Below, in pieces: positions 7,912-50,710 of a stretch of 64,000 bases of DNA. Origin of the DNA: Kalaharituber pfeilii (Eukaryota > Ascomycota > Pezizomycetes > Pezizales > Pezizaceae). The position numbers and the translations under genes are program-made. A model generated the notes under the pieces. That model saw only the letters and a list, made by a program, of their open reading frames with translations, did not search any database and was not told where the DNA came from. The stretch covers positions 682,001 through 746,000 of the forward strand of contig WHUZ01000018.1 in NCBI GenBank assembly GCA_015179045.1, written 5' to 3'. How positions within the stretch are numbered: position 1 is the first letter of the stretch; each line of letters begins with the position of its first letter.

Positions 7912-8497
7912 ATGCGTCATACTCTTTCCTTTCATGAATTCTTTTACGCAACAATTTTCTTTACCTGTTCTTCTTTTGTTAAGGTAGGACTTGGCTGCAC
8001 AAATCTGGACAGAAAAAGTTGTACTGGTTGCTTTGTTTCTGATGTGTTTTGAGGTAGAGGGTAATGATATACATATTTAGCGAAGTACTAGCTCGTTGAA
8101 GTGGTAACGATCAATTTACATTTTCGGCGTTTGGGAATAGGTTCACCCACAGAAACAATAGGGTGACGCTATCCAGTGGAGGATGTGATAGGATTCGCTC
8201 TCGCCTGTAAATTGAATGTTGTATCTCTGATAATTCCCCTGAGCGGGAGATGTTGTCTCGTGCAGACTACCTCTAGAGGCAGAAAGTACCAGACTATACC
8301 AGGTAGTCCGCTTTACAGAGGTCAGAATTGAACCGCGTGCCTAGTCTGGTTGCGCGTGCCAAGGGCCCAAGTTACGGAACCGTAATTGGCTTGGCGTATA
8401 CTAAGTCGCGTTTTCTTCGGTGCTTTGGTCAATTGATTTTGCATTTATTTCATAAATTCTCAACGAATACGCTTAAGCCCCACAGAGGTTTCCGAGA
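7912..8497. other. Intergenic region RPL7-POL1
   Basis: Contains the 3' UTR of RPL7 and the promoter of POL1. Apart from one micro-insertion (8334-8360) and nearby short palindromic pieces around CAGACTA and TAGTCCG (8300-8325), I see nothing else. Confidence 0.5.
8334..8360 (+). repeat. Micro-insertion copy 1 (11 bp between 8-bp direct repeats)
   Basis: Direct repeat CGCGTGCC at 8334-8341 and 8353-8360 encloses TAGTCTGGTTG (8342-8352). The enclosed 11-mer is the shared end sequence of the family described in the findings. The flanking repeat is read as a target-site duplication. Confidence 0.6.
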
Positions 8498-11400
8498 ATG
8501 TCTACCCGGCCCAGCCGGCGCTCGGCTGCTGTTCGCCCTCACGATAAATTTGCCGAACTCAGAGCTCTTCGTGAAGCAGGCAAAACCAGATTGAGTGCAT
8601 ACGAAGTTGAAGAGGAGAAAAAGATATATGAGGAAGTGGATGAAGAGGATTATCGCAGGCGCCGCAGGGAAAGGCTATTGGAAGATGATTTCGTTGTCGA
8701 TGATCGTGGCGAGGGGTACGTGGACAATGGTGAGGAGGACGATTGGGACAGGGGAGGAGGAAGGGAACGTTATAGTGATGAAGAAGCAAGTGAAGGAGAT
8801 ACAAAGGGATCTATTAAACTCACTGGTACGTTTGCGAATCATCACTAAGCTCTGTTCTAATACTTACCGGGGGTAAAAGCAAAGCAAAAACGGCAGCATG
8901 AGGAAGAGAAGAAGAAGAAAAAAGCTGAACAGGAAGGGAATATTACGAAATACCTCAACTCTGCTGCCGCAGCAAGCACGAAGGCTAAACCAGCTGTAAC
9001 TACGGAAGACGATGAAGCGTTTATGGCGGATCTCCTAGGAGATTTTGATAATACAACTACTGCCACAGCTATGTCTTTCAGCAACAGGCGGCGAATAAAA
9101 GGAGAATCTGGGTCGAAAACTCGACGAATGTCTCCCCCAATTCAGCGAAATGCAAACACTCTTGATGTTAAAGTAGAACCGGGATCGCCATCCAAAGGCA
9201 TCAGGAGCTCGCCTCCTCCATTCATTGCTGAGACTTTTCATGATGAGTACGATGAGTATGAATCTATGAACACCAAATTTGCTGATGATGATATCATTAT
9301 GAACGATATGTCTGAACCACCATCTTCCCCCACGGTGAAAGCAGTTCAAAGGAAAACTGGTGCCATGGCATTAGATGATGAGGATGACGACGTTGCTGTG
9401 ATGGAGATCAAGGGTGTGCAGAGTTTAAAGGGAGCGACTGTGAATATTTCTGGGTCGAGACCAACCCCGAAGGTTGAAGAAACGAAATCTCTACCGGCAA
9501 AAGTAGCAGCTGTTGATTCATCCTCATGGAAGAGGGTAACAGCTAACCTAAATGTGACAAATGTCACAAGCAGTGACTCCATTGGCGTAGGCAAACTTGA
9601 TCCAAGAGATGCATTAGATGAAGATGGGAGCTTGAAGTTCTTCTGGCTGGATTACACCGAGGTTGGTGGCTCATTGTGCTTATTTGGGAAGGTTAGAGTC
9701 AAGGATACAAAGAAGTATGCTAGTTGTTTTGTGAAAGTGGATGAAATAGAAAGGGTCCTGTATTTCTTGCCGCGGGAATATCGAATGCGTAAGTGCATCA
9801 CCTCTGTTATTTAAAAATCTTCTACTAAACGAGCATAGGCAATAGGGTACAGACAGAGGAAGAGGTTGTGATGGAAAACGTCTTCGATGAAATTTACAGT
9901 TTGATGAAGAAGCATAAGGTAGAACCTTTCAGAGCTCAAACTTACAAGCGCAAATATGCCTTTGAATTACCCGATATCCCCAAAGAGTCAGACTATCTTC
10001 AAGTTAAATACTCGTATTCAAGTGAGTCTCATATCTTTGAATCTAAGACCAAACAGACCCTAATCTCTTCTAGTGAAACCTCTGGAGATTGACCCTTCAA
10101 AGTTCGAGACTTTTTCGCATGTATTTGGGACGCATACAGCTTTGTTTGAGCAGTTTGTTGTGTCAAAGGGTATTATGGGGCCATGCTGGCTAAATATCAA
10201 AACAGCGAATTTCAATGCAGTTACAAATGTATGTTCGTGTTGAGCTCACAGGACCTGATTTGGATTAACAATTCATAGGCATCGTGGTGCAAATTGGAGC
10301 TTCAAGTGGACAAGCCTTCGTTTATAGAGAGGTTTGGGGATTCTGAAGGGGATGCCCCACCTCTTACACTAATGAGCATAGCTCTACGCACGAAATTGAA
10401 TATCAAGGAGAACCGACAAGAAGTGATTGCAGCTAGCGCAAGGATATATGAGAATGTATCTCTTGAGGACCCAACGCCGCCGGAAAAGCTACCCTGTCAT
10501 ACTTTCACGGTTATCAGGCCTGTACAGGGAATTTTTCCACCGGGTTTTGAAATGGTTGTGAAGAGGCATGGGGGTAATATAAAGTTGGAGAAGACAGAAC
10601 AGTCCCTATTAAATGTTTTCCTTAGTATGTCCAAGTGGCCTTCTGGTTTGAGCACGTTATGCTGATATTGATATAGCTAAACTTCAGCTAGTGGATCCGG
10701 ACGTGCTAATAGGCCATCAACTAGAAAATGTTGACTACAGTATCTTGCTCAATCGCATGCGAGAGCTGAAAATCAATCAGTGGCACCGAATAGGGAGGAT
10801 GAGAAGGTCAGAATGGCCAAAATATCAGGGCCGTTTTGCTGGTACATTCTTTGCAGAGCGTGGTCTTGTCGCTGGTAGATTGATGTGTGATCTTGCTAAT
10901 GATCTAGGAAAGGTATGTTCTCGTTTTCCGCATTACTCCTCCATAATTCACTTGATTGTGCTAATGTGTGTCTCTCCATCTAGTCGCTAATGACTCAATG
11001 CCAATCCTGGAGCTTGACGGAAATGTGTGAACTGATGCTATCCGAGAAAAGAACCGACATTGATACTGAAGCTGCCCTTAAGACCTGGGGCAGCACGGCA
11101 CAAGGTCTCCTCGATTACTTACTTCACTGCGAGACGGATACTTATTACATTGCTGCCGTTGCCCTCAAGGTCCAAATGCTCCCCTTGGCAAAAGTGCTCA
11201 CGAACCTGGCTGGGAACTCGTGGGCACGCACTCTCAGTGGTACAAGGGCCGAACGGAACGAATACATTTTGCTGCACGAGTTTTATAAGAACGATTACAT
11301 ATGTCCTGATAAGTATACTAAAGGAAAAAAAGAGGACAAGAAGCCACCAGGTAAAGACGAGGAGAATCCTGACAATGAAGATCAAGTGGAAGTAGTCAAG

Positions 11401-13405
11401 AAGAAGGATAAATATAAAGGTGGACTTGTCTTCGATCCGGCAAAGGGGTTGTATGATAAGTTCATCCTGGTTATGGACTTTAACAGTTTGTATCCGAGTA
11501 TAATACAGGAGTATAATATCTGCTTTACTACTGTTGAGCGTACGGATTTGGACGATGATACTGTGCCGCAAGTACCAAAAGAACAAGCATTGGGGATACT
11601 ACCAAAGTTGATCTCAAACTTGGTCAATCGAAGAAGACAGGTGAAGGGGTTGATGAAAGATAAGAATGCAACTCCTACGCAAAAGGCACAGTGGGATATT
11701 AAGCAGCAAGCATTGAAGCTCACAGCGAACTCTATGTACGGGTGCCTTGGATACGATAGGTCAAGATTTTATGCAAGGCCATTGGCAATGTTGGTTACGT
11801 TCAAAGGACGAGAGATTTTGTTGAGCACCAAAGAGCTAGCAGAGTCAATGCAGTTGGAAGTTGTGTATGGTGATACCGACTCTGTCATGATAAACACTAA
11901 CGCCCCGAATTATTACGATGCGCTGAAAGTAGGACAAGAGTTCAAGAAGGCGGTGAACGATAAATATCGTTTATTGGAGATTGATATTGATAACGTATTT
12001 CAGAGGCTGCTATTGCATGCAAAGAAGAAGTATGCGGCACTGAATTTGACGGAAGTCAATGGGAAACTGGAGAGTAAGATGGAGGTCAAGGGGTTGGATA
12101 TGAGGAGGAGGGAGTATTGTAAGATTTCGAAGGATGCCAGCGCGTGGGTATCCATTATTTACCTTCTACTAACATATCAGCAGAAAAATTGCTAACTGGG
12201 TCTTTGATGGTCAACAGGCATATACTGAACGAGATTTTCTCCGGTGATGACACCGAAGTTGTAGTCGAACGCATCCACGACTACCTCCGCGACCTCGGCG
12301 ATAAGATGCGCAACAGCAAGTTCCCGGCCACGGAATACACTATCTATACGAAACTGGGTAAGGAGCCCGAAGAGTATCCTGACGGCAAGACGATGCCACA
12401 CGTGCAAGTGGCGCTACGGAAGAAGGCTAGGGGAGAGATGGTTAAAGTGGGTGATATCATTTCTTTCATTGTCACAGGGTCTAGTGATGGTACAGATAAA
12501 AACCCAGCCGAGAGAGCATATGCGTTGCAGGATGTGGTGAAGGATCCGAATTTGGTGCCGGGTATGTTCCTACCCTGAGAGATTTCCGTACGTCATACTT
12601 ATCATGCCGGGTAGACCACGAATGGTACCTCATTAAACAAATCTTCCCCCCCATTGAGCGTCTCTGCTCGCCCATCGAGGGCACCGACCGAGCCCGCATC
12701 GCCGGCTGCCTCGGCCTCGACGCACACAAATACCAAATCGTCAGCCACGACAACGACGGCCAAGAAAAAGACCTTTCTCCACTTGAATCCACCATCCCAG
12801 ACGAAGAGCGGTTTCGCGACGCTGCTAAGCTCATGTTGAGGTGCCGCAAGTGCGGGGAATCCGCGGTCTTTGAAGGGCTAATCAAGTCCCGGGATCGTGT
12901 CTCGTCAGAGGGCATCATGTGCGCGAATCCGCAATGTACCTCCCCGCTAGCGGTGTCGTCTATTGTCGCGCAACTCGAGCACCAACTTCGCGCCCAGGTA
13001 GCGATGTACTACGACTCATGGCTCATCTGTTCCGACTCTGCATGCGGCAACCGCACACGTCAGATGTCAGTATACGGCAAAAGATGTCTCGGCTCCCAGG
13101 GCCTTGCAAAGGGCTGTTCTGGAAAGATGGTATACGAGTATTCGGCGAAGAGAATGTACAACCAGTTGTTGTATTTCCAGAGCTTGTTTGATACGGCGAA
13201 GGCAAAGGAGAAGGCCACGGGGCCCAACGCGGATGACTTCACGGTAGTGGTGAATCATAATCAGAGGCGGTTCGGGATAGTGAAGGGAAGAGTGGAGAAG
13301 TATTTAGATAAGTGTGGGAGGGGGTGGGTGAGCATGGACAGCATTTTTTCGTTCTGTTTGGGGGCGAATGGGAGGGCACCGGCTGCACAGACCGTGGTGG
13401 CTTGA
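8498..13405 (+). CDS. POL1: DNA polymerase alpha catalytic subunit
   Basis: Catalytic subunit of the DNA polymerase alpha-primase complex, which extends RNA primers at origins and on the lagging strand. Nine exons join cleanly: 8498-8825, 8880-9788, 9839-10021, 10074-10228, 10279-10624, 10677-10912, 10984-12143, 12218-12561 and 12615-13405, giving 1483 aa, the usual size. The N-terminus holds the Pol alpha opening block ([20 protein letters not shown]) and the [10 protein letters not shown] motif. The family-B polymerase core shows [18 protein letters not shown] (motif A), [13 protein letters not shown] (motif B) and YGDTDSVM (motif C). The C-terminus has two Cys clusters, CRKCGES...CANPQC and [22 protein letters not shown], for zinc and B-subunit binding. 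All introns are about 50-75 nt. All catalytic residues appear present. Confidence 0.96.
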
Positions 13406-14712
13406 GCAGTGAGGAAATAGAAGAGGGATTGAGTATAACTTTGTGGATTTTGATATCTTTTCTTTTTTGTCTACAATTGTCATGTCTAAAGAGTATTGGA
13501 AAGATTTAAGATCTAGTCCTATTCTTTGGGTCCTTTACTTGCATTTTCTGAGTTGTGTGTTAAACGTTTACTTCATTTGGTTTTTCTTGTTACTTGTTAC
13601 CATTTTGCTTGTTTGCATGACGAAATTTACCGGCCTACTACATCCATACGAGCTTTAGTGTCGATATCCTAAAGGTAAATTGAAAATAGAGAATAGGAAC
13701 GGATATTGGGGAAACAACTTAGCCATGATTAAGCCGGAATTGCGACGTTGTAACTAACTAATTGTGTTGGAGAAAGGCAGGGGACGGTCAATATAGCCTT
13801 TGCTGTGACAGTCACCCACTGAACTGAGTAATGTCTGAAAATACCCTACCATTTCTTCATACCAAAAACGCCCTGATTACATGTTCTCGTACTCAGTCTA
13901 AGAGACCCAAGAAATAGGCCGAAAATAATAGTCTGGGCACGAGAACATTGATTATACAAACAATGCTTTTACTTTCGTTGTGTTACTTGGCTTGCTCCAT
14001 CATCTATCACTGCCTTGTCGTCACGCCGTCATGCAGTCCTGCGCACCGCGTATTAGCAATTGGAATCCATACTCTGAGAGCGAGAACAATCTGTATTAAC
14101 GCTGCATCGCATTTCGCCCCGTACATTCATGCCTACATCCATACCACCCATACAGCCAAGGTAGCGCACGTAATCACCAAGCAGCCACATTTTGGAAGCC
14201 GAGTATTATACACGAGGGTAGGGGTAGGTGTGCCCGTTGCTTTGCCTGATTTGGGAAGAAATCCGTGACGGCGGCTTTGGTGCAATTGGTTGGCAGTGTT
14301 CCGGAGAATCTGGGGTTCTCGGAGGCTTGAGTATGGATCGGAGTGGAGAGAAGGTGTGAGGTGATAGGGCATCGGAAGGGGGCCCGCTGGACGGTGGATA
14401 AGGGGTCAGAAGAAAGGAGAAGTGGAATGATGTATGTGAGATTTTGTCTCTTGCGTGAGAAGGAAAATGCAACAGCACGCATTCTTGAAAATATTTCTGA
14501 AACTCAAATAACATCGGGTATGCTTATATATCAGATCTAATTATTGTACATTGAGGGACGACTGCCTTTGTGCAGCTACAAGTGATGTTTGCGGTCTTCA
14601 ACGAGCAGAACAGAATGTTCGCACGGTGAAGTGGTTTGGTTGCCTGCTTAGAGTTTTACAGGCATTTCCATTTTGAGGAGTTCAGCCTTCCAAATCTGGA
14701 AACCAGGATAGA

Positions 14713-14763
14713 ACAGAAAATGTAGTCCGGTCGGGGGTCGTGCCAACCAGACTACAGAAAATG
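14713..14763 (-). repeat. Micro-insertion copy 2 (32-bp palindrome between 9-10 bp repeats)
   Basis: Direct repeat ACAGAAAATG at 14713-14722 and 14754-14763 encloses a 31-32 bp sequence starting TAGTCCGGTC and ending CCAACCAGACTA. Its two ends are inverted repeats of each other (TAGTCYGGTY outward). Read on the minus strand it closely matches copy 6 at 50 kb over the whole length. With the outer A counted in the element it is 32 bp and the duplication 9 bp. Confidence 0.7.
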
Positions 14764-16589
14764 GAAATAGATGTGGTTCACCTCGGGGTCGCCAGCCGAG
14801 CAGCTGCGTGAGAAATCGATTGAAGAAACCCGAACACGTGCAAGGGGGCTGCGGATCTATGGGGTGAGGCAATTACAGTAGTGCAATTCGTTCTGGTGCC
14901 GGTAATGTTTTTTTTTTGTTCATTCTGTAACGAATGTATAAAGAAATAAGAGCTTGGGCTCCCGTAGGATTCATATCAATATGATTGCATCGGCTATTCT
15001 CTTATAGAGCAGAATGTAGGTGCTCCCAGAAATACCGGGTTAGGAATGTGGGGAGGAGGGTATACGTAAGACTTGAGATAACCCATGTTCGTTTCACCAT
15101 ATCAATAGGGAGTTTATGCTATGTACCCAGGGATGCATCAGGGATTGAAGTCTTTTAGCGTGTGGCACAACCCTGAGCCTGGCAGAAAGTGTAGTTGAGT
15201 TTTTGCTTCGTCAGGGATGTGGATTTTCCGTTGTTTATTAGTAAGTGATGATATTCGATATTGCAAGCACTGGGCTTGGCATGAGACTACTGGCGCTCTC
15301 GTGTTAGCTTGGATCCCATGGAAATATTGGGTTGCATAGATCGCAACTCAATGGGCTCAGATATTCCCTGATTTGTGGTTGTCCATGTGATCCGAATTGT
15401 AGAATTGATTCCTGTTTTCAGAATGAAAATTGGATGAAAACTGATGAAGATAGATGGGGTCAAAACGAGGTCGTTTCCAGGGATCCAGACCCAGATGTCC
15501 CGGAAATTCCTTTCGTATGATAGGATTTTCTAGCGCGTGGCGCAGATGGCTCCCGGGAGCATTGCTGGCGCCAGCAAAAACCCCCCCTAAGAGAGAGCTT
15601 TGGCAACATCCCCGTAAGTTTCTCCCATAATGCTGCGCCACACCGTTGCTGTGACAACAACAGCTTTACATGAAACTCGGAGATGTTTGAAAAAGTCCCT
15701 GTGATTACGGGAAAAACTGTACATCTTTAAGCAATGCCTGCAACTATTTAATCAAGTCAGATTGCCTTCAAACTTTGTATAGTTAATACCTATTGTGAAA
15801 AACTGCCTTGATCCAATTTCACAGACACCAGCAGCACTACTTTCTCTATAACCTTTATTTACACAATTGCCATGCCTCAAGAGTAACCTCTTCAGCATCT
15901 GCCACCACTCAAATAGGTATGCCAAGCTCAGAAAGACTAGAAAAAAGGGACCCTGCAAGCTGAACCTGCTTCAGCAAGTCTGAATTGTTTTCTCCACCAA
16001 TTTCTTGTAGATAAGCCACTGTGAGTGTAGAAACTACTTGGAAGAGAGTACTGCAGGCTGAAACTGCTGCGAAATGCTGTAAATGCATGTGCATGGTTAA
16101 TGGCAGGTGGATTTATTGCGGTAATTGGTACGGGGATATTAACGGACCAAACCTCTCATTTGCAGAATTCCTGCGAAGATGACTAATACAATACGGGCAA
16201 AATGTACGGGAATGTTGCCAAAGCTCTCATTAAAACAATTCTCTTCTTGTTCATATTGATGTAGCGGAGCAGTCGCAGTGACTTGGGATGGTGTACTATG
16301 GCCTAACGGCTGGTGACATAGAATAAGAAATGTTGGAATGCTTGACGAGTGTTCGAACCGTGGTATTTCATTCGATAAGAGTATCAGTGTAACGGCACAG
16401 TGTAACCAGACTAGGGATTCAAACATGAATTTGATTTGCAAAATACTATTATTCTGGTTGCTTTGAAATATGACATTTGTGACTGGTGGATTGGGGTTAG
16501 GTTTCGGAAAGAAAATATGGAGAACGTTGGTCCTTTTTCCTCCAATTCAAATGTTGCAATTGGAGCATCGACTGTTAACTTAACTCTGT

Positions 16590-16623
16590 ACATTTTAAGG
16601 TGCAACCAGACTAACATTTTAAG
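16590..16623 (-). repeat. Micro-insertion copy 3 (14 bp between 10-bp direct repeats)
   Basis: Perfect 10-bp direct repeat ACATTTTAAG at 16590-16599 and 16614-16623 encloses GTGCAACCAGACTA (16600-16613), which on the minus strand is TAGTCTGGTTGCAC, the family end sequence. Confidence 0.68.
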
Positions 16624-21214: not shown

Positions 21215-21701
21215 AGAGAGAATGGTATCAAGGTAATTAAAAAGGTAGGTATCCATTCTGGCGCACATTTTTGGGGGCAACTTTACGATTTAGATTTTTA
21301 TGCTTCTGACGTCTGTTTATGGAATGGTATGCGATTCAATCTTTTTCTTTTCCTTTAATATTGGTATTGGCATTGTTTGTCGACTGTCGTTGTATATTTT
21401 GTTGCCTTGCATGGGGGAACTCTGGGTAGGATACCGTGCCTTTATAAAGTTTTTTATCAAGTCCAAGAGCATTGCTTTTTAACATTTTTTCTTTTCTTCT
21501 GTTTTCTTTTTGACTCTTCATATGAGATTGAGGAAATATGAGGAGGGTATTTTGTTGATTCTTTCGTTACTATTGGGAGCACGTATTAATTTCATCATTC
21601 GTTGGGTGACATCTGGCAGCTTATAGTCATGAAATCAGAGAGCTTGAGAAAAGCCCATTATTGGTATTCATAATCTTTTTTTTCTTTCTCCTAGTTCTTA
21701 T

Positions 21702-22459: not shown

Positions 22460-25237
22460 TTATCTTATTATATATAATACCCTATAGTGCACTCTTCAGG
22501 GATTTATCTCCCTACGGCTTTGTCCGGCTCTGGAAGACAAAATCCACCAGGTTCCCTGTATTATAATCCGATTTTTACACACTTTATGGGACAGGGCTTA
22601 AATCCCCGACGGGATTATGACAGTTGATTCTTATGCTTTTTAGGTTATTTATTTTTATGTATATACCATGCTCTGGCCTATGCCTATACGGACTATGTTA
22701 TATATTACTTAAATAATATTAATGTAAGGTATCATAAACATTTCTCTTCAGAAGTTCACGCTGCGAAGACCCTTGGGCCCGAAGCTGGTTGGCACGACCG
22801 TAGCCCGAAGCGTCGCCTGAGTTCAATGATGAGAGAACATACTATGCAGCCATTGATACCACATGTCGCACCCATACACCCACGTGAGGAAATATCAAAA
22901 AAAGCTTAATTTCGTTGATGAAAAAAAAAACTATGGAAGAAATCTCGAGATAGCAAGGATGACTATCACCAGCTTTGGTAAAAGAGGTCCAAGCACTCCA
23001 TACAGCTGTGAATGTGAGATATCTTCTGTACAGTACGTATTAGAAAAGAGCTGTATATAATGCTCTATAAGGCAGCACCAAATAGTAACTAGCATCTGCA
23101 TATATAGCTAGCTTGCAGTAACCAGATACATAGCTGTCTCTTGCTGTTAGATATCACCTATGGGAGCTATTGATTAGATTCCCTCAGAGGCCTGCAGAAA
23201 TACCCTCAAATTAATACTACATAAGATATCCAAAATCAGTAGTTTTGTTGGAAGATCAAATCCCCTGACTTAATGTGGAAAATAGAAGCCTTCGAATACT
23301 TCATACTGAAAGAATAATAATTATCAGTGAAATAACAGGACAAATATCCCTTTTGGTAGACCAAGGATTTTCTCGAGGATTTAAAATCCCTGTTTGATCA
23401 CTGAAAAATGGGGACAGGGCTCAGATATCCCCATTTTCCAGTATCACATTCCCCATTCTGTATGATAGTTAATTTGTTAGAAAAAGTAAAACTTGGTGTG
23501 AACTACAGTTTAGAGTTCTTTTGCAGTTACACTCTGGTAGAGGAGTAACTGAGTGTATATCATAAGCCTGAAGTACCATTGTAACCAGAGGCCGGAACAC
23601 CAGAGGCCGGAGTGATCATTCAAATTAGAGGCTGGAGCATAATATACCATATGCTCAGTGCAGTTGTATGGTATGTTTGGCTCACTCCAACACATTTTCA
23701 CTGTTGAGCATCCTCATTATCTATTGAATACTGCTGCTGGATACTGCACCGGCTGCTGGACTAGTATCCCAAGTTGCCAGAAGCTCTTAAACTTACCAAG
23801 GACGACATCAATGCCTACTGCATTTTGAGAATTTTAAAAGTCAGTCCTCTGCAGTTGCTTGTTTAATGCGCGTGCACCTACGTATCTCTGTGGAGCTGTA
23901 TGGATATCGGCAGAGGGTAATGCATCTGTGCAAACAAGTAGCTATACATTGCTTTTATGTCAAATGCAGGTACTCTCCATGTCTTGGTAATCCATTCAGG
24001 AGCCATCACATGGATAAATAGTTCTAGCAATACTAAACATGGATATACCCCATCCCTCACGTGGCCAGAACCCACAGAGACGGGGGCGATTGAGTACGAC
24101 AAGTTCTTGTGGAGATCTGGTGCAGGTTCAAACTTGCAAGATACTTCTTATCGTACCAACTTGTCTCTGCACAGCACTAAATCTGTGCTCGCCCAGAGTC
24201 GGTTGTCCATAGCAACGGGAGGAGCAAGAGCTGTAAACAAGAAGCTCCGGTGTAAATATGTACGAAAAGAGGCTTAATTATAAATACAAGGAAGTAATAT
24301 ATATCCCAGCATAATTGCGTTTCTTTGTTGCACTGCACATACGTACATGTGATCAACCTGTTCCTCGCCATTTCCCCAGAATTCCGAATCCAGATTCTCC
24401 GCTTGATCGTGCTTCCACAGGACCGCAACGTCCCATGAACGCGGGGCATCCCCCCCCTGCTGCTTTGCTCGTACTGTTGCTGATAACGGTGCCAGCGCGA
24501 AGATCGTGGGCCGGAGCTGCTGCACGAGTGCACATCGTGCTCTCGAGTATGTATGCAAGCGATCGACCGCGCAACTGGGCGATACTGTAAATGCGGCAAA
24601 GGCCTTCCCACGAGTAGCGTGGCGCGCGCTGCAGCTGAGGGCGAGGAGAAGCAGATCAACTGGGCCCCACGGCCAGCCAGCCAGCTTCAGCTTCATTCAG
24701 CCTACCTATTAGCCTTGTCCCCCGCAAGCAGCACCATCGCTCCTCCCCCCCCCCATCGTCATCAGCAATGCATCCAGCGCCGCACTGAAGCTTCTCAATC
24801 CGTTTCGTTTCTTTCGTTCATGTTGACACTTTTTTCCTTTCAATTTGGCCATTGGGCAGTCGATCGAGACGTGAAGGCCTCTACGCATCGCTCTGTGGGC
24901 GCCTCTTCTGGCTGCAGCCAGTCACCATTCGGCTAGAGCGAAGAAAGACAACGGCGTCGCCACATCTTCTTCACCTCTCCCTACGTAGGTCTAGAGTATA
25001 CTGGCTCATTGTCCGTTTAAGGTATTCACCAATAAGAGTCCTTTCACCGTTACGCTCGTCTCTTATTCATCCCCAGCCAACGTTCTACGGCGCTTATTCA
25101 GTTCAATCATCTACAATTCATCGATTCTTTCAAATGCTCATCGCAAATAGATCGCCTGTTCAGTTCAAAATCTACTAGTGCACTCCCCTGCTAAGCATAC
25201 CCCCGACTGCCATATATCGGGCCGTCAATTATAGAGC
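22460..25237. other. Gene-poor region with micro-insertion and short tandem repeats
   Basis: No supported gene. A direct repeat of about 15 bp with core ACCAGAGGCCGGA occurs at 23584-23613, with a weaker third copy to 23633. The open frames at 23957-24277 and 24177-24659 lie on opposite strands and match nothing I know. The last 500 bases are rich in C and T and probably contain the promoter and 5' UTR of the gene at 25238. Confidence 0.5.
22777..22811 (+). repeat. Micro-insertion copy 4 (17 bp between 9-bp direct repeats)
   Basis: Direct repeat GCCCGAAGC at 22777-22785 and 22803-22811 encloses TGGTTGGCACGACCGTA (22786-22802). TGGTTGGCACGACC is the central part of the 32-bp copies at 14.7 and 50.7 kb, but the outer TAGTC is missing here. 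Confidence 0.55.
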
Positions 25238-29885: not shown

Positions 29886-32131
29886 GAAAAATTCCCTTAC
29901 TGTGGCAGAAGTGGAGTATGGTTGTTCTCGTTTGTGTTTTACCTCTTGAGTGAGTGAAGACGGTATGATACCACAGCGCAGGCCTGAGAAGTACCGCGGC
30001 CCGGTGCAGATCACGGCGGCCTTGCATTGCACGGCCGTCTCTACAGTGCTAGCAAGGCCGTTTTCATGCACCCAAAAATACCCCCCCCATTTACGGTTAT
30101 CGCAGCACTGTCGAACCTCTGGCAGTCAGCCCCAGCCCCATTAGGCCCACCAAAGAATATCCAATTACAATTCTCTCGCTGTCCCTTTCACTCCCCCCCC
30201 CCCGCAGCATGACGCAGGGACTCCTGAGATTGCTCTCATGCAGCATGGCCAATTGCAACTTCTTGTCACATGCGTGTCACTTAATCAAGAAGGGAAAAAA
30301 AAAAAAAAGTTATATATTAATCCTAAAGACACATTTCTCGTTTCCCAAGCATAAAACCGGCAGTGGATGTTGACGCTCTTCTCCACGATTGCCGAACCAC
30401 ATTCTATTGTACAGGAACGCTTCATGCATGAAGAGGCTACAGGAACCAATATTAATACGCAACTCAACGCCGGTCCGAAAAAGACAATAATACCAGACCA
30501 CAGGAAGAAACACAGGCTATTATGCACTCTTTCATAGCGTGACCACCAATAGTCTCCCGCGGTCATGAAGTCACTGCGTGGGAACATACTATTATCCTTG
30601 CTGAGATTCAGGCACCTGGGAACGTTTCTGACGAAATACTGAGCTAGTTGAGGATGTATATAGAAGGTAGTTTATGGAATTAGAAATTAATAAGTTGAGC
30701 TTCAAACATCAGAGTGCTAAATTGCAATAGCTTTCCCTTACACCGAGTTGCATCACTGAGCCAAAACAATAAGAACTTTTGCTGTTTCTAATCTCGCAAA
30801 ATACATCCTTTCACTACTCCTTACTGACTCCTAATCCTGGTCCACGACTAACGAGCTTCCAGATAACTAGCATACTCGTATGATTTAATCACGATTCATT
30901 AAACACTGCGATAATGCATACACTAGCAGGTATCGATACCAGAAATATCCAAAAATTGTCATGTCCAGCGTATTCGAATATGAAACTTTCCCCTTTCTCC
31001 GAGTGACCCCCCCCCCTTTTTTTTTTTTTTTTTTTGGGACGAATACTTACACCGAATGTTTACACCGATTACTTGCCATATTCACATGTAAAAAGTTTGG
31101 ATTAAGTATCCAGGCAAGTATCTGCATAATGCGCTGTGATAGCCTCAGGCAGGGACTGTTGGTAGAGCTGCAAGATTGGGCAAGAAAAATGGTTTACATA
31201 CGCTATTTCCTACTCATCAAATCCGATGGGCGGTTCATTCGGATATGCTTGACAATCATGTCGGACATATCCTACGAATATTCGCAAGTACATGTTCCGG
31301 AATATTGCAGGCCTCCCCCTCAAATACTTGTTTATTTATATCGTGATCTGTCGGTGTAGGTTTTTGTGACCAATAAGTATTCGCGATTTTTTTCATGTCC
31401 CACAGTATGTCCCCTACTCTCTCTTGCCTCAAGACCTCTATCAAGCAGTCTCTCAAGACTGTAGCCTCTCAAGTCCTACAATCGCATTACCCCCACCTCA
31501 TCAACCCGGTTACCCTGAATTCAATTCCCCTCCCGCGAGCACCCACCCCACAACCGTTACCACCTAACTAACCCAACCAGACTACCCACTCGAACACCAG
31601 CCACGATTGCTAAATAAAATTCCAATGTTTTATTTTTTTCGTACGCCATTGATGAACCGAGATGCCTAAGAAAAACTCTCTCTCTGTACGAACACATACG
31701 TAAGGTGCTTGATCCTCACAACGTCCTGAGCCTATAAAGTCCTTTCCTCGTCCTGTACCAGGGGTAGCTGCCGCTATCGTATGTGCCCCCAGGCAAGTAC
31801 TTGTAGTATGCACCCCTTCGCTACATCGTCTCTCCCAAATCCTTGCGGCCAATATCTCCTGTTCTGCCATGCCTTCGTGGGCTTTCAACTCGAAACACTA
31901 AACGGAAAATAGATAAAACAAAAATAAAAAAATATCCAAGTCTTTATTTCGCAAGGAAGAAAGTGGGGATGAATGATAATGACGACAGGAAACTTCATGC
32001 AAAGAGACTACAATTCCAAAAGCAGGTTCCAAAGCAGAGATACACAGAACCCTTCCAATGCTTTGCGACTCCATACTTACCAACTCAGCACAAAACCTTT
32101 TTTTCATTCATCCCAGATCACTGACCCCATT
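28761..32131. other. Gene-poor region rich in homopolymers
   Basis: No supported gene; the longest frames (28978-29565 minus, 30961-31359 plus) run through homopolymers and look accidental. Notable runs: G15 at 29132-29146, T18 directly followed by A14 at 29854-29885, C11 near 30193, and C10 followed by T19 at 31007-31035. GGGCTGGGCTGG-type repeats lie at 29250-29290. An isolated AACCAGACTA motif is at 31575-31584. Confidence 0.55.
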
Positions 32132-34214: not shown

Positions 34215-35633
34215 GGTGCTGGCTGGGCTGAGCTCTCGAGCCGATCAAGCAGTTAATCTTCAGTGGTCAACGAGATAAGCCGCTACCTGGGTGCGCACGA
34301 GGACGCAACTCGCGCTGCGGGCGTGTTTGCGCGGTGTGCACTCTGTCACTCTGCGGGCGCGCAGGCTGGAGCAGTCGGGCCTTCGATTTTGTTCCCTTGC
34401 GATGATGCTCCCGCGGCAGGGCAGGATATGATATGATACATGCAATGTGCGGGGGCGCTGGCAAAGGGGCGGTTGAGCAGCGTCGCATGCCGCCCCGGAG
34501 CAGCCGCTGCATCTTTCCTCGGCACAAGTGTTCGTTCTACGTGAGGCCAGGCGAATGGCACGTGGCCGGCACCCCACCAAGTGAGGATGCACACATGGAC
34601 GTCTCCACAGCACGCCGCGGGCCGGGGAGCATCCCGGGCTGAGAGCAAGGTAAGCAGTAAACTCGAGCTGCGGTCTACAGGTTCGTTTGATTCTCAACTC
34701 ATTCTTACGTCAAGCAACACTCTCGTGCAGCACTGAAGGGATTGGTTTGGCATGTAAGACCCCACCCGCCCGCCCCAGGTGCATGTCTTCACTCGTAGAG
34801 AACAGAGTATGGGCGACAAGGCACGGGCAGTTACTTCCCACGCGGGGAGGATTTCAGAGTCTCATTCACTCGTGAGAGTGATCGCTATAAGCACATCTTC
34901 GGCACAACTGCGGCAATGGGAACACCTTCCTGGGCAGGAGATGCAATGCTTGAGTTGCAATTTGACATCCGTGCTATGGGGCGGAGACCAGGTTTGCCTC
35001 TTGAGCGCAAGGTTGAAATGAGAAGAGGTAGTGTGAGCATTGGAAAAACGCATGCTCATGAGAGGGTGAGGGCAGAGGCGGGGGCCGAAGATTTCAAAGA
35101 ACGGTCCAGTTTGTATGAATTCGATCGCATACCCTAAGTAGGCAGGAATAGTTTAGTCCACCCCCCCTCCCTTTTGATGCAATGAGACCTATATAAAGCT
35201 TTTGCACTGTCGTTTCAAGCACGAGAGGCCCAATCGCACTGTCATTCTGAGCTCATACCCTTCCACTGGTGCTTTTATACTACCTAGGTCCACCACCATG
35301 CCCACCATCCAACTTTGATCCCTTTTGTAGTCTGGTTGCACTACTCCCAACCCTTTGATCCCAAAGCGGTCATCCTCAACGAGGTGATGAAAGCTGTTTG
35401 ATAATGTTGATGATCATGATGATATTCGTATCGGATTAGCAGGCCTGCATCTTTGATCCTGCAACTTTTTAAAGCCCCCAGCGAACCTAAACCAGCCCTG
35501 AAGATGTAATTCAAGAAATGACACAATAGAGGAAGACGAAAAGTAAATAAATAAGGAAACAAAAAAGACCCAGTTTATGAGTAAAAACCTGAAATACAGA
35601 AACACCAAATACCCATACAACACCGCCCAACAC
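34215..35633. other. Intergenic region, GC-rich on the left
   Basis: The left half (34215-34700) is GC-rich promoter-like DNA upstream of the TMEM135-like gene. The open frames at 34260-34697 and 34779-35137 overlap on both strands and match nothing. Micro-insertion copy 5 lies at 35313-35362. Confidence 0.5.
35313..35362 (+). repeat. Micro-insertion copy 5 (about 30 bp between 10-bp direct repeats)
   Basis: Perfect direct repeat CTTTGATCCC at 35313-35322 and 35353-35362 encloses 30 bp that contain TAGTCTGGTTGCAC (35328-35341), identical to the 14-bp insert of copy 3. The extra bases on both sides of the shared core differ from other copies. Confidence 0.55.
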
Positions 35634-43301: not shown

Positions 43302-44897
43302 AGGGGCGAGCCATGGGCTTTGAAGGGGGCAGGTGAGATAGATTCCGGTGGTGAGCTCCAGTCACAAGCGCACCCACTCCGCGCCTCTGACGCTGTCCAT
43401 GGCTGGTTTCTATCTTTATCAAGCAAGCTGGGGCAAATTAGGTGGTGGTGAAACATATCAATAGCAGGAAGATGAAGTCTAGTGAGATTTGTTTTTTTAT
43501 TCACATGACGTGCGACTTGCCGCAATGCGATATCGCTTGATATATTCTTTGTATTTTATTTTTATTTTTATGTTTATTTTTATTTTTATTTTCATTTTTA
43601 TTTTTTTATTTTTATTTTTATTTTATTTCATCTTATCTTTATTTTTATTTTTATTTTTATTTTATTTTATTTTTGCATGTCCCCCGTTTGTACATTAGCT
43701 CTGATCAAACAGGCCATATATCCTGATATGGTAACTATTATACTAGTACTAGCTTGCGCCTGAGGGCCAAAATTAACGTAGGCCTCGCTGGACAGAGGTG
43801 CAAAAACAGCGTGCAATACTTACGTATACCTCATGAGGTACAGGTTACTATTTATACTGATAGAGTCCGCTTCAAGGGTGTGGGCTAATGCTGTTGCATT
43901 ATTACAATGCTCACAGGTTCCTGGTGGCAAGGGATTTAGCATGAGACTAGGCAAACGGCGCCAGGGCAGCTGCATGGCGCTGGTGTTGCATAATGTTGGG
44001 GTACAGCTTGTAGGGTACCCAATAGGACATGGCCCCAACCAATATGGCTGCAGTTACGTAGAGCTCATATGAAGACGGCAAGCTTGGTTTGGGTACTGAT
44101 CGCCTCTAGTTCGCTGGGCTTGGGTCATTTGTTGCCCAACAGGCTCCTCACGAGATGGTCAAGCCTGGGTAAAGGCCTGGGCTATAAGAGACCACAGTGC
44201 GAGCGGCACCCAGGTGGAGCAGGAGGACTCTCCGGGCCGCCTCGTGTCCCTTTCCGCAGGCCCCAATGCTAGCTAGGCTACCTTAAGTATATCGCAAGCT
44301 GTTAGCACTGTCCATGCATGGCGGTGGTACCAAAACGGAACAAATACCTCGTCTCCTACAAGAGCAAGTACTGTTACAATTGGCTGGCCTTGAAGCTGGC
44401 ATTACCTTTTGCTCCAACTTTCAACTTTCTTGAACCATCTTCAAGGTGCAGCTGCAGATAGGTGAACTGTGCCATCCTGCCATGCAACCACATGTGTCTC
44501 CTTCTGTATCCTTCGACTGTTCGATGCGTTTGCAAGTAGTATAGGCCTCCTTTGTCTTCATCTGCTGCTCGCCTGCTCTCCACTTGAGCCTATTGTTTGC
44601 TTCAGGCACCCCCCACATTCTCAACGGTCCCAAGATGCCTATACACAGGCAGCCCCTGGCTTCACCGCAAGTGTCTGTTATACCATTGAGACATGCCCCA
44701 GTTACTTCCTGCTGCTCGAATGTTGTTTGCGATGAGCAGCTGCAGCCGCTGTCACGAAGTTCCTTTAACCGCCTTCCTCCTTATTACGTCGATATCGACA
44801 AGACTGATAGGATTTACAAAGAACGTCTAGCATCAGCTATGGTTTCAAACATTTCAAGGGGTTTTCTCCAGCGACCTCACTGTTCAGTCAAGGAGAA
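43302..44897. other. Intergenic region with AT microsatellite
   Basis: Downstream of the LRR gene lies a (TTTTTA)n-type tract (43550-43678). The rest includes small open frames on both strands (43833-44272, 44374-44901) without recognisable content. The last few hundred bases are presumably promoter and leader of the kinase-like gene. Confidence 0.5.
43550..43678. repeat. TTTTTA/TTTTATT microsatellite
   Basis: About 130 bp of degenerate TTTTTA and TTTTATTT units, about 250 bases beyond the LRR stop codon. Confidence 0.9.
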
Positions 44898-46681
44898 ATG
44901 AAGCGGCCTCAACTGCATTTGATCATGCTAGTTGGACTAGTAGCAAGTGGAAAGACCACGTTGGCAAAATCTATTGTCCAGGCGTTTAGTGGGTATGTCC
45001 TTGTTACTGGCGGGATTGTGGAAAATGAGGACTTGTGGGAGGAGGAATGGGATAAATGGTAAAGGCCACTACTCAGGGTAATCTTATACAAACTAATTCC
45101 TTAAAACAGTGTATTTGCTGCAAAGGCTGCGTTCTCATCGGGAATGAATGTTATAAGCGATTTGTCAAATGAATCACCGGTGAAACGCTGGAAGTGGATA
45201 CAATTGGCACAAGAATACGGTGCTTCTATTGATGCAATCGTATTGGATACTTCTGTGACTGTATGTAAGCCTTGTCCCATGGAATTTGGCATATGATGGC
45301 TGACGAGGAAATTCCACAGACTTGCCATCAGCGTATCTCAAATCTATATACTGGAATATATGGTGACAATCCATACGCTGTGGAGATGTCCCAGCCATAC
45401 CACCACCGGCTTCGACGCGTGGCAAGTCGATACAGTAAACCAGCAAGTGTCGAGTTTGCAGGAAGAGTTATCTATCTTCCAGAAGGAGTGCAAAGCTGTG
45501 GACATTGGAGTGCTGAGAAGTTGAGGCGCTTTCTCCCCGATGTAATGGCTCAGCATCCTAGAAAAACACTTATTTCAAGCATGCTGGACTCTGACGGCAT
45601 GCCTGAGGATGATCTCTTCTCTGCAGATACCAATGTTGGTGAAACGCTTCCGACAGGGACTAGTATTGAATCCCGCGCATCATTTAGGTTCACAGGACAA
45701 TCGATTAAAGACAGGCGTTACGGAAGCATGTTATCAAGTAGTCTAAGCTCTCTACCGCTTTTAGATACTACTCAAGAACATCCAATGCGTAGGTGCTCTC
45801 CTAATGCTATTGCCATAAGAGCGTCGCCTAGGCGGAGGAAGCGGACCCATGAGAGGAGGCCTACAGTCGCCATCGCTGTATCTGAGCTGGCGGCAAAGGC
45901 ATCAGCGCCTTCAACTTTTCAAGACAACGAGGAGGATATAAGAGAAATGCCTGCATGTTTGAAGGAGGATTCTATGCACACTAAACGTGATGCGGGGATT
46001 GATGATAGTATGAATGAACTAATTTTAGAATGCCCAACATCACCGTTAAGGGAGGATTTGGACACCAGGCGAGCATTTGCAGCTGTGGCTGATTATGGTA
46101 ATAATTCTCAACAAGCATCAAAAACTTTTACTTCAAGTAAACTATCTTCAAGCACTCCTCCAACCTCTCCCGTCGCGATTTCCAGCAACCTTGCTACCGC
46201 ATCGCAGCCTGTATATAAGGGGATCTGCTCGCTGCCTTCTTCCATCCGAAAAGAACAGTGCCCAGACCTCTTTCAGCTGTTTCAGCTTGCTCACATCTCT
46301 CAGGCGCCTACAATGAAGTACAATCCTATGGACTACGTTGAAGGGAACATGGAAGGGAAACAAATCAAAACTTCGGAAGAACGAGCTATCAAACAAGAGG
46401 ACTGTTTTGTTGCTGGAAACCCCACTTTGATTGGAATTCGAGATGAATTCAGCGAAATCAATGACCATTTACGAAATAAAGAAAGTGCGCCCAATATACA
46501 ACAATTGGGAAAGTTGATTGATGTAGTGGGGTATGGTCAGACGAGCTTGGACAGCAGTACTTTGAATGGCGTGCTCGAAATTAGGAGTGTTGAGAAAACT
46601 GGATGCATCACCTCAAAAAACAATCTCCATCAACAAGAGGGACTGGTGGTGAACTCACAGCACAAACATCAGGCCAGATAG
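44898..46681 (+). CDS. P-loop (AAA_33/PNK-like) kinase-domain protein with long tail
   Basis: Exons 44898-45058, 45110-45260 and 45320-46681 join to 557 aa. The start shows a beta strand and Walker A motif, LIMLVGLVASGKTTLAKSIV. Next come VFAAKAAFSSGMNVISDLSN and KRWKWIQLAQEYGASIDAIVLDTSV, then CHQRISNLYTGIYGDN and VIYLPEGVQSCGHWSAEKLR. This is the layout of the small nucleotide/polynucleotide-kinase-like P-loop domain found in aprataxin- and PNK-related fungal proteins. The usual VNQDD block after Walker A is not visible (here VTGGIVENEDLWEEEWDK), so substrate and activity are unclear. The remaining ~330 residues are mostly polar and disordered, with a basic patch (SPRRRKRTHERRP). Beyond the stop, another frame stays open for about 20 codons (to 46725), so the C-terminus may differ. 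Confidence 0.72.
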
Positions 46682-46725
46682 ATAAAGCAGTCTCCCATTG
46701 GGCAACGGGAAACAGCTATCTTTGA

Positions 46726-47022
46726 ATGAGTTCTAAAGTTATCACCAATAACTTAGAAAAAGAGATAGGAGCGGTGAAAGAACCACCAAGGAACCTACAA
46801 AAGATGGATTGCTTCTGCGGTGAAGACAACCCCTGCATACTTTACGGACCAAAAATTCCCAATGAAGCAACTCACCTTGATTTTTATTTACATCATCTAC
46901 AGGGAGTGGGACTCGGGTTTCACAGTATTATGCCTCTCTTCTGCCGACTGACCGAGGAGAGACATTCGCCTTTATTCTGGCGTAGTGCTCTAGGTGATTA
47001 TACGGTTTGGAAGCGGGTTTAG
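46726..47022 (+). CDS. Uncharacterised small ORF
   Basis: 99 codons directly after the kinase-like gene, with a short Cys-containing stretch (MDCFCGEDNPCILYG). It is followed in another frame by a hydrophobic segment (FLFLILFILVLFI, ~47020-47060). No family recognised and no supporting splice sites. It may be 3' UTR of the upstream gene or a relic. Confidence 0.2.
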   Translation: MSSKVITNNLEKEIGAVKEPPRNLQKMDCFCGEDNPCILYGPKIPNEATHLDFYLHHLQGVGLGFHSIMPLFCRLTEERHSPLFWRSALGDYTVWKRV

Positions 47023-48628
47023 TTTTCTGTTTCTTATTCTGTTTATCCTAGTTCTGTTCATACGTGCATTGTATCATTACTACCCTGGGGTAATACTAGC
47101 ATTGACTGCGCATGTGTTTATGGTAGCTGGCAATACTAGTGCCATTCAGTGGAGATTGCGCGAATTGTGTGACCCAGCGTACCCAACAAGGGACTCATGG
47201 CGCTAGCTTAAGTGCAGAGTTCTAGGATTTGGCTTGCATATCCTCGAGCCGCCGACACTTAAAACCCTCCACTCCCGCTCTTTCTCTGCGTCAAGGCTGC
47301 CACTCACCGAACATTAAAAAGCCAACAGCATCACATTTCGATTCATCACCACAGCAGACCAGGAATACCGGACACACTCTTAATAATGGGGCCAACAGAC
47401 GTCTACACTGGGAAAGAGGCGAGAGTTAGACCGATCATTCCCGAGGAAAGGTACAGCACGCAAGCGAAATGATGGAAAAAATTTCTTTCTCAAAAAAATC
47501 AAGAACACGAATCCACCGCCCGATTTATCGTCTTTACTGGATATGAATTTATTTTCATTGGCAGCCAGAGTATTCCATCTTTATACAGGAGAACCGACTT
47601 TGACAGGTACAGGGCTTGTCAGTGTGGGATGTATGTTTTGGCCTTGAATAAGGGACATGAATGGTAGTTATTGAGACTGTCTATCGCTATTACCTCCGTT
47701 GCAAGCATTGTCACGAGAAAATTTTATGTGAAGAGATCTAATCAGTCTCCATCTAATTTCTCTGAAGGCCTTAAGGTTTGAATGTAGTGAATCTTCGTTA
47801 TTATACGAGGGAACGTCTAACATAAACAAGCTTTATTCTCAGTTACTGGCTCAGTACTAACCATATAAACTAGTGGTCAAAAATATATATATCGGACATC
47901 ACGCTTACAAAGGCATGGAGCTGAGATGCATTGTTATTTACAAGTTGATTTTATCGCTGTCACATATCACTGTCCCGTTCCTAATTTTCAAAACCACAAC
48001 AGTTAGTAGACGACCCAAGGATAACGCCGTTTAACTGGTCTCGGTGCCCCGTTAGTCGCACAATCCATCTCGCCAAGAGGATTGCAAAAGGGACTATACC
48101 GTTCGAGTTCACGATTGGCATTGATCCAAACTAACCCGTCACGTACGGAAGTCTAGGAGGCGCGCCTCTGGGTGATACTTAACTCTCATCGAAACGAATG
48201 ACGGATGTTTCGCCAGTAGTTCAGTTACCACTGACAAGAAACTGCTGGCACCGTCGAACTTGTTTGTCAAAACTCAATAGGAAAAAGTACACGTTCAATA
48301 CCTGAATTGCGGACAAAACGCCTCCATATTCAATACCAGCAAGTTCGCGTACCGGAACCGTCCGGTACTAGATTTAATTCTAATAATGGGAGCCAAATAT
48401 AGGGTGCATGTTTCTGACTAATGAGATAGACCACACACGAATGAGCAGATTTTTTAATTCAATTTCAATTTGGATCCAGAAATACCTCGAATACATAGCA
48501 ATCCTCCAAAATACAAAAAAGCAAAATAAAAAAAATGAAGATTGACAGGCAATGGAAGACAACAAGATCTCGAGCTCTAGTTTCCCCCATGAGACACCCT
48601 TCCTTCAGTCCATTTTATCCTAACCATT
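47023..48628. other. Intergenic region
   Basis: No gene, RNA or repeat that I can support. Composition is even and AT-leaning. Confidence 0.45.
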
Positions 48629-48835
48629 TCATCGTCGAGCCTTCGTCTTCTGGAGTTGGAGCGTTGCGCGCTAGGCTCGAAATTGCGGGTTATGGAGATA
48701 ATTTAGTGCTAATTGAGTTAGTTTAATGATTCCAGTGCGAGAACATACAACTAGGTTACATACTCCGCAGCAATCGCAAGTGCATCCTGTACCGCATGAG
48801 CAGTTAGCGGCCGAAGTGCATCCACAGCCAGACAT
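48629..48835 (-). CDS. Copper-type metallothionein, about 30 aa
   Basis: A very short Cys-rich gene, missed by usual length cut-offs. From ATG at 48835 the frame reads MSGCGCTSAANCSCGTGC, then TCDCCG. This matches the Neurospora copper metallothionein pattern (C-x-C, five residues, C-x-C, three, C-x-C) residue for residue in spacing up to its last part. Such proteins bind Cu(I) in thiolate clusters and protect against excess metal. A GTATGT donor at 48763 follows directly; a plausible acceptor at 48650 leads to KTKARR and a stop at 48629, giving 30 aa, with an intron of 114 nt, similar to the single intron in the Neurospora gene. If unspliced, the frame runs on (VCNLVVCS...) with two more Cys before a stop. 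The second exon is therefore the least certain part. Confidence 0.7.
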
Positions 48836-48977
48836 TTTGATATTTGCTTTGAAAGGTTTGAGGAATGGAGAAAAATGTAGTATGGATCGTAGGATCAGTT
48901 GCTTGAGGGGAAGTCGGTTGCTTGAGGAGAGAAGGTTGATTGTGGAGAAAAGGCTACCTCAGGGCGAAAGGGGAGCC

Positions 48978-48985
48978 CTTTTATC
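48978..48985 (-). promoter_or_regulatory. TATA-like box of the metallothionein gene
   Basis: GATAAAAG on the minus strand, about 145 bases upstream of the metallothionein start codon, within GGATAAAAGGGC. Position suits a highly inducible promoter with a leader of about 110 bases. Inferred from sequence only. Confidence 0.35.
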
Positions 48986-49969
48986 CTTCGAAGGCTGGCA
49001 TATATCAATCATATTCTTATTGATGAACTGGTGCGACAGGGCGGTTTAGGACACTAGGCGGTAGTCTGATTCGAGACTGGCGACAGGGCTTTGTTCACAC
49101 CAACGCTAGCATCAGCACATTTTGCGGGGTTCTGCGCAAGAATGCGTGTCCTTCTGAGTTACATGGGTTATCTTAAACATCCTTTCCCTCCCAATACTAC
49201 GCCTAAAATTCCGACACTTGCACAAAATCTACTGGAGTGGTCTGCTGCAACGCACGGAAGAAATCAATCCACTATCTGCCGTTTTCCGACCGTTGCTCCT
49301 ACAAACGCAAAAAACAGCATTATCAGTCCTATGCTGTTATACAGCTAATTAGTTAGGAATCTCACGGCCCAAACATAAAGTTTTCCATAGGTAAGAACAT
49401 TTGAGGAATAAACCTCTCCACTATGAGACTTGGTAACCTGTCACTTGAGGGATTGTCTTGTTCTGGGGTATGAGTTCTTTTGGCGCTGCCAAGCAGAATA
49501 ACCCCACACTAAAACACTGACTTACATCACGCGGACTCCGCACAAGGCACCACTCAAACAGTTGCGATACGGGAGGATAGCCTAAAATTTGAAAACCATG
49601 ATTAGCAATTCGTCTAGCCTGCTTGGTGAGAGAAGGATTTGATTCAGCCTCGCTCAGCATCCAGACTAGGTCAGGACATCTTGTAGCCTCCAGCGGCAAG
49701 GTTGAGCCTTTTGTGCCACATAAGCACCTCCGGATCATTACAATACTGGGAGAGCTCAGGTTTCGGATATCGCATCCTGGTTACTAACATTCAGGCCTCT
49801 CACTGGCCTCAGCGGGACCTAGGATGTTATGTTTCTGAGATTCATACGCAAATTTTTGATGGCGTTAACGGACTGTTGTCCGTGGGGTGAACTGGCCATC
49901 ATGGGTTGGCTAATTACGTGGGAGGTGTTCGGCGTGTGGATTGTCTTATATGTTACTGTTACGTACTGC

Positions 49970-50101
49970 ATTACAAACCCAACGTTGGGAAACAGCCTAC
50001 TTTGACAAGAAAAGGAATGTTATTGAACATTTCACTTATTACAAACCCAACGGTGGGAATCAGCGTATTTTGATTAGAAAAGGAATGTAATTGAACATTT
50101 C
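49970..50101 (+). repeat. Two near-adjacent 64-bp direct repeats
   Basis: Unit 1 (49970-50033) and unit 2 (50038-50101) both start ATTACAAACCCAACG and end TTGAACATTTC, with AAAAGGAATGT inside, differing at roughly nine positions. This is an old local duplication. Confidence 0.85.
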
Positions 50102-50659
50102 GCATTTTGGCACTGCCGCGAACAGGGACAAGGAGTAATCTCGAACCAGCGGCTGATGACTATCTCTTAAGGGGATTCCAAATCCTTCTCTGATTAGCGT
50201 TGCGTCTGCAAATGATATGAAACACATCAATGGTCAGCACAACTGGAAATATATTTTGTTGTTGGGACGGTTCTTATCGGCTCTAGATAGGCTTTAGATA
50301 AAATGCATAAGGTCTTCACGTCAGATTTTTTTGCGCGTCTGGTCCTGCATACATTTTCAGGCGGCAATGAGATATGTACATCTACTTGTCTTGCCTTTGT
50401 CACTGCGGAAAAAAGCTTCCATCCCGGAAGCGCCGAAGGAGCCTGCAGCTGTGCCATGCAAATCAACGCATGCCCTTCCCTCGTGCCCCTACCGCCGCAG
50501 GGAGCCCATGTGCTATGTCTATATGTCACTGTTCTAGTCTGGTTGGTACTTACGCTTTGCATTCAGCCGATTATAGTGAGGTATATTACAATCAAATGAG
50601 TTCGCACCAAATGCTCATCGAGGCTGAGTGAGCTGTGTAACCTGTCCACATGTACAGGT

Positions 50660-50710
50660 ACTGGCACTGTAGTCTGGTTGGCACGCCACCTGACCGGACT
50701 ACTGGCATTG
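50660..50710 (+). repeat. Micro-insertion copy 6 (32-bp palindrome between 9-10 bp repeats)
   Basis: ACTGGCACTG (50660-50669) and ACTGGCATTG (50701-50710) are direct repeats with one difference. They enclose TAGTCTGGTTGGCACGCC followed by ACCTGACCGGACT(A). Ends are inverted repeats (TAGTCTGGTT / TAGTCCGGTC). It matches copy 2 at 14.7 kb over its full length with about four differences. Confidence 0.7.

Follow-up and report, generated by a model that had tools for sequence, protein, structure and literature searches.

The window analysed here, a 64-kb stretch (C90:682001–746000) of the 78.0-Mb, 360-contig assembly of Kalaharituber pfeilii, a Pezizales ascomycete, carries very short inserts that share one end and lie between direct repeats that differ from site to site, which raises the question of whether such inserts are mobile units in their own right or what larger elements leave behind. 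The shared motif is far commoner than its composition predicts. The 10-mer TAGTCTGGTT had been reported eight times in the window, and a recount returned the same 8 copies; the degenerate form TAGTCYGGTY has 10 copies where shuffled sequence averages 0.37, and 0 of 100 shuffles reached that number.

Six insert sites with repeats had been proposed in the window. Four of them stand as clean inserts with abutting repeats (8342, 14723–14754, 16600–16613 and 50670–50701), while the site at 22.8 kb is a rearranged case and that at 35.3 kb is doubtful. We describe them in terms of the excision reading set out below, with end types A, B and C. At 8342–8352 on the plus strand, the single-sided insert TAGTCTGGTT(G) comprises 10–11 nt of one transposon end and 0 nt of the other side, between copies of CGCGTGCC at 8334–8341 and 8353–8360 (8 bp, or 9 with one mismatch). 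The B-type insert at 14723–14754 (minus strand) has 32 nt, made up of 29 nt of one end and CTA of the other, between exact 9-bp copies of CAGAAAATG at 14714–14722 and 14755–14763; the parental terminal inverted repeat (TIR) in L168/L169 starts with the same 29 nt. A further single-sided insert, TAGTCTGGTTGCAC(C), occupies 14–15 nt at 16600–16613 (minus strand) and is flanked by ACATTTTAAG at 16590–16599 and 16614–16623 (9–10 bp), and the 32-nt insert at 50670–50701 (plus strand), B-like on one side, ends in CCGGACTA and lies between CTGGCACTG and CTGGCATTG at 50661–50669 and 50702–50710 (9 bp, one mismatch). The plus-strand unit TGGTTGGCACGACCGTA at 22786–22802, between perfect 9-bp repeats GCCCGAAGC at 22777–22785 and 22803–22811, is counted as rearranged because the first five bases of the end are missing; we infer a rearranged B-type scar. 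At 35328–35352 (plus strand), TAGTCTGGTTGCACTACTCCCAACC is a doubtful C-type candidate, because 5 nt (TTTTG) separate the motif from its repeat, copies of CTTTGATCCC lying at 35313–35322 and 35353–35362. Three additional motif matches gave no repeat by the repeat test, namely TAGTCTGGTTG at 50535–50545 (plus strand) and 31574–31584 (minus strand) and TAGTCTGGTT at 16404–16413 (minus strand); each may be an old scar or a chance match. Apart from these, TAGTCTTATTCATAGCGGTGCTGAGAGTT at 53548–53576 on the minus strand resembles an insert and is bounded by perfect 9-bp copies of TATCATAGG; it was perhaps left by a related transposon whose end differs. Positions 49970–50101 hold a 68-bp unit tandemly duplicated in 1.9 copies.

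The motif is in excess across the genome, and so, among the sites sampled, are the direct repeats next to it. In the 78-Mb assembly TAGTCYGGTYG has 1768 matches and the reversed pattern 359, and a degenerate 20-nt extension of the motif has 284 matches genome-wide against 0 in the control. The excess over the reversed control is 1409 copies in the whole assembly, and independent scars are fewer than this because the excess includes parental ends and copies amplified inside host repeats. A direct-repeat test was positive at 14 of 45 sites and in 1 of 1761 mismatched pairs; at a looser cut-off, which tolerates 1 mismatch in 9, a private repeat lay within 60 bp of the motif at 38 of 102 sites and in 12 of 2027 mismatched pairs. 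This near-unselected sample combines the window sites with 95 of the first 100 matches listed (C1 and C2 only); a few palindromic inserts enter it twice, once per end, and one amplified 11-bp scar is present as two sites, L090 and L100. No repeat was found at 64 of the 102 sites. The reversed control puts the chance share of motif matches at ~20%, and the remaining repeat-less sites would have to be old or deleted. The second copy of the duplication was intact at 19 of 95 sites (0.03 expected) and 1–3 bases short at 6 of 95 (0.23 expected). As to duplication length, put earlier at 8–10 bp, most of the 39 clean cases have 9 bp (24) and the others 10 bp (9), 11 bp (3), 8 bp (2) or 12 bp (1), in a set that includes pattern-selected loci and in which several 10-bp readings turn on an ambiguous base beside ...CTA. 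Around 47 sites, the base composition has weak preferences only.

Insertion, as opposed to shared ancestry, had been argued from the flanks, and copies of host repeats that lack the insert and have a single target bear it out. Three sampled inserts are lacking in paralogues of the host repeat that carries them: the 29-bp insert in L007 (duplication CGGTAGCAA) is missing from L047 and L034, the 33-bp insert of L034 from L007 and L047, and the 33-bp insert of L050 from L047. The insert-free copies show a single, unduplicated target. A genome search with the L034 site returned eight further copies with abutting flanks that overlap by 11 bp in seven cases and 9 bp in one, which fits a single 9-bp target with up to two chance bases; the eight L034-related copies are empty, and six are 98–100% identical on the right flank. 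In the relatives of the L100 site, the 11-bp scar has been copied together with the host repeat. The 11-bp insert of L100/L090 was considered as a decayed form of the L034 33-mer and rejected, given these empty copies and its place in another subfamily, at almost the same position. The 33-bp scar (L034, ~1501–1533) and the 11-bp scar (L100/L090, ~145–156) occupy positions that agree to ~1 bp in different subfamilies of one repeat, through either a target hotspot or coincidence.

All inserts share the outer end TAGTCTGGTTG and differ at the inner one. The classes are single-sided pieces of 10–16 nt, longer pieces of up to 35 nt, and head-to-head doubles; each side retains roughly 10–36 nt of element sequence ending at the duplication, and pieces are often joined at microhomologies. 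Head-to-head double ends of 22–52 nt occur at 38 places against 0 in the control, and among 20 that were fetched the abutting 9-bp repeat is perfect in 13, has one mismatch in 4, is displaced in 1 and is absent in 2. Twelve of the 38 doubles (one with a substitution) are the same 22-mer, TAGTCTGGTTGCAACCAGACTA, which is centred on TTGCAA and would be the expected product of two identical ends joined at TGCA. When 76 repeat-flanked insertions, pattern-chosen loci included, were decomposed, 54 consisted wholly of terminal pieces with no filler, 8 had 1–3 nt of filler and 14 had more.

The retained lengths are not spread evenly. In DNA searches for partial ends, which are blind to pieces under ~30 nt, B-type matches that are not part of a long end accumulate at 30 nt (5), 35 nt (8) and 36 nt (2). 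The longest B pieces in repeat-flanked scars measure 35 nt (L180 and L213, repeats with one mismatch), and L211 and L212 have a 35-nt parental match but no cleanly abutting repeat. Among C pieces, the maximum in a repeat-flanked scar is 29 nt (L210, one mismatch). When the TIRs are aligned, these B 35-nt and C 29-nt stops coincide, just ahead of GTCTGGTCC. A commoner stop lies a few nucleotides earlier (A 30, B 29 and C 25–27 nt, pattern-selected loci included). Longer matches among the short ones measure 42 and 59 nt for B and 55 and 63 nt for C; the 59-nt match continues as an interrupted end, and the 63-nt match is probably interrupted.

An apparent second end of the inserts, TAGTMCGGTCGG, was evaluated as an independent terminus and rejected, being the distal part of the TIR plus CTA. 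It has 96 matches genome-wide against 25 in the control, and 20 places picked outside known full-length inserts resolved into 14 with an unrelated repeat of type TAGTACGGTCGGGATATATAGG, 4 B-type inserts, 3 of them with 8–9 bp repeats, and 2 that were neither. A few B-type cases carry TAGTCCGGTCGG outermost, which distal TIR plus CTA does not fully explain. The separate repeat, with TAGTACGGTCGGGATATATAGGAGTATCC (L145–L161; 14 of the 20 fetched places), is spread over contigs and in several places occurs twice, ~450 bp apart.

Extended motif matches in inverted pairs led to long elements with the same ends, which supports the earlier suggestion that the inserts are end-only leftovers of a TIR transposon after excision. 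The long inverted ends at C15, C26, C79 and C23 start with the insert sequence and run far beyond it. DNA searches yielded 12 inverted end pairs (five B, seven C), spaced 2.8–21 kb apart. Type B starts with TAGTCTGGTTGGCACGACCCCCGACCGGAGGGAGGGTCTGGTCC (as in L168) and type C with TAGTCTGGTTGCACTACCCCTCGTAGAGGGTCTGGTCC (as in L165), and in both the opposite end repeats the start sequence with few or no changes. Seven of the 12 parents have a matching 9-bp duplication with 0–2 mismatches: exact in C223, C320 and C335, one mismatch in C293, C58 and C312, and two in C68, the termini of C58, C312 and C68 being mutated. Among 132 control pairings of ends from different parents none matched, the best having 3 mismatches. 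In the other five parents (C15, C26, C23, C79 and C360) the flanks differ by 6–9 mismatches and a matching duplication is absent. An A-type parent was not found in the DNA searches for long elements, and the A TIR beyond nt 30 is assumed.

Type B has a DEAD/DEAH helicase gene. C79, the one C copy read, is a non-coding foldback element of 2.83 kb, with no frame longer than 73 aa and inverted arms of ~1.15 kb. The B elements C15 and C26 share a common backbone, TIRs of ~102–112 bp and a decayed copy of this gene, putatively RecQ-like by its motifs. Three further parents (C223, C320 and C335) contain the helicase, and it recurs at several places elsewhere, in one case ~1.6 kb from the single B end on C2. 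Its frame has 18 homologous proteins, including 2 from K. pfeilii, 1 from Terfezia claveryi and 1 from Tirmania nivea; two further B frames have homologues only in K. pfeilii (3/3 and 4/4 matches). The open frames scanned from B copies contain only DEAD and Helicase_C domains, plus an RNase H frame in L186 that presumably belongs to a nested LINE. The C23 parent carries a nested frame that we assume to be Copia-like, and a 1.83-kb inverted-repeat element (L185, 2677–4509) is nested in the C15 parent.

Most of the insert sequence can thus be assigned to terminal pieces of larger elements, one piece or two in inverted orientation, and the inserts are best read as repair products, not as transposing units. 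We put the probability at about 0.8 that they are donor-site scars of a cut-and-paste TIR transposon family whose termini are TAGTCTGGTTG and whose target duplication is 9 bp. A transposase would cut the two strands at different points, one at the edge of the element and the second ~25–36 nt inside the TIR, which would leave, on either side of the donor break, a duplex ending at the 9-bp duplication and bearing a single-stranded 3' overhang of element sequence. These tails would then be shortened, one of them often completely, before short microhomologies (TGCA for the 22-mer, for example) join them, sometimes with filler. Each scar would be the record of one past departure, except for scars copied along with a host repeat. 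Such a long staggered cut, with a 3' element tail and a duplex ending at the duplication, would explain both the limit on retained length and the intact duplication copy. The tail length is only bracketed, because the usual stop, 29–30 nt in A and B and 25–27 nt in C, is not the 35- or 29-nt maximum.

The alternative that survives best, which we nevertheless judge unlikely, is abortive gap repair, in which synthesis from the sister chromatid after excision copies a bit of each end and the copies are then end-joined. This too would leave end fragments within intact duplications, on one side or on both, and the P-element break examined in PMC2895639 is most often repaired by synthesis that stays incomplete and then by end joining. 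Abortive copying predicts a smooth tail toward longer fragments, whereas the B matches cluster at 30–36 nt, only one 42-nt match and one interrupted 59-nt end lie between that cluster and the long ends, and the largest sampled repeat-flanked pieces stop at homologous B and C places. The C matches of 55 and 63 nt somewhat weaken this case.

Far less probable is the idea, entertained in the earlier note, that the inserts are truly mobile micro-elements of 11–33 bp moved in trans by a transposase elsewhere. Identical A 33-mers at eight separate sites and identical B 32-mers at four, with mostly private duplications among the copies checked, could suggest a mobile unit, but identical junctions also recur in P-element repair (Table 1 of PMC2895639). 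One outer end is constant and the other varies from 10 nt up, and what looks like a second end comes from further inside that parental TIR, with CTA added. Micro-elements are disfavoured because terminal pieces of many lengths, here from 10 to ~36 nt, would not be expected of a mobile unit whose two ends are fixed. Miniature inverted-repeat transposable elements (MITEs) are short non-coding sequences between target duplications. The micro-inserts resemble them in this and differ in having no second independent terminus and no conserved length, since they start at 10 nt and comprise one or two pieces. A reading involving an RNA gene would formally fit the head-to-head doubles, the intact duplications and the contrast between a fixed outer and a variable inner end, but is scarcely credible, as DNA parents with inverted termini and 9-bp duplications contain the observed pieces and make an RNA gene unneeded.

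The excision-scar reading has its closest counterpart in the P element. P-element cleavage leaves 17-nt 3' tails (PMC7776569, PMC2895639), and the latter describes these tails as end-joined in excision repair; of the junctions in its Table 1, an asymmetric class keeps 4 nt of one side, some joins recur identically, and some contain templated filler. The scars are alike in kind: a duplicated target with partial sequence of one or both ends, microhomology joins, occasional templated filler, and asymmetric and recurrent identical joins. The asymmetric P-element class is provisionally taken as the counterpart of the eight identical 33-mers. The two systems differ in duplication length (9 bp here, in scars and parents, against 8 bp) and in the sequence kept per side (up to ~36 nt here against 17 nt in the P element, about twice as long); the terminal sequences are unlike by eye, the host here is a fungus, and no P-type transposase was identified, PF21787 giving no match here and being equally silent in all 14 control genomes. 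Target duplications of Galileo, a group of foldback elements in the P superfamily, are 7 bp long. Galileo is described as having long, internally repetitive TIRs, like the C79 arms, but its duplication length differs, and no transposase is shown for the elements here.

We regard the phenomenon as ordinary in kind, being one of excision footprints, and unusual in degree, given the very long retained ends, the very large number, the 9-bp fungal family and the helicase gene in one type. No such scars are described for fungi in the titles or abstract openings of the open-access literature searched. A fuller proposal, which we advance tentatively and at somewhat below even odds, is that the family stands outside the known P superfamily, with a DEAD/DEAH helicase gene in one type, and makes a P-like staggered cut ~25–36 nt inside the TIR, about twice as long and placed by an internal TIR motif; the host would thus keep roughly a thousand sequence-resolved repair junctions of natural double-strand breaks. 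If this is right, past jumps in one fungal genome can be traced by searching for the 11-mer, the scars show how natural breaks with defined ends are repaired, fungal end trimming, microhomology use and templated filler can be read without experiment, and very long staggered cuts are not confined to animal P elements. It would also call for caution elsewhere, as abundant 10–35 bp inserts with target duplications may be non-mobile.

What enzyme might mobilise these elements was pursued from the suggestion that a 9–10 bp duplication would suit a Mutator-like one. Target duplications of Mutator-like elements (MULEs) range from 8 to 11 bp, and the 9-bp duplications here fall within that range. The suggestion has this length alone in its favour. 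None of 71 MULE-domain places falls inside the 12 parental intervals, the inverted repeats seen at three MULE loci have other ends, and the inserts here retain terminal sequence, whereas excision of Muta1, a tested MULE, is reported in PMC5225508 to be mostly precise when it is flanked by its duplication; precise excisions would be traceless here. PMC5225508 also gives 8–9 bp duplications and, in 12 of its 14 families, TIRs longer than 100 bp, in both of which the elements here are similar. The expectation of longer elements with these ends and a transposase was realised in its first half, in the 12 inverted pairs: the open frames scanned from B copies gave no transposase and no MULE match, other frames fell below Pfam cut-offs, and no intact autonomous copy was present among those read. 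Mobilisation in trans by a Mutator-like enzyme is possible. Four 7-kb MULE loci were read as candidate parents and set aside: L061 gave no convincing inverted pair among the matches listed, and the inverted repeats of L062, L063 and L064 end differently. These last three loci have long inverted repeats with termini of their own (for example GAACCTCTCCGGACAGGCAG in L062), and the arms of L064 are internally repetitive.
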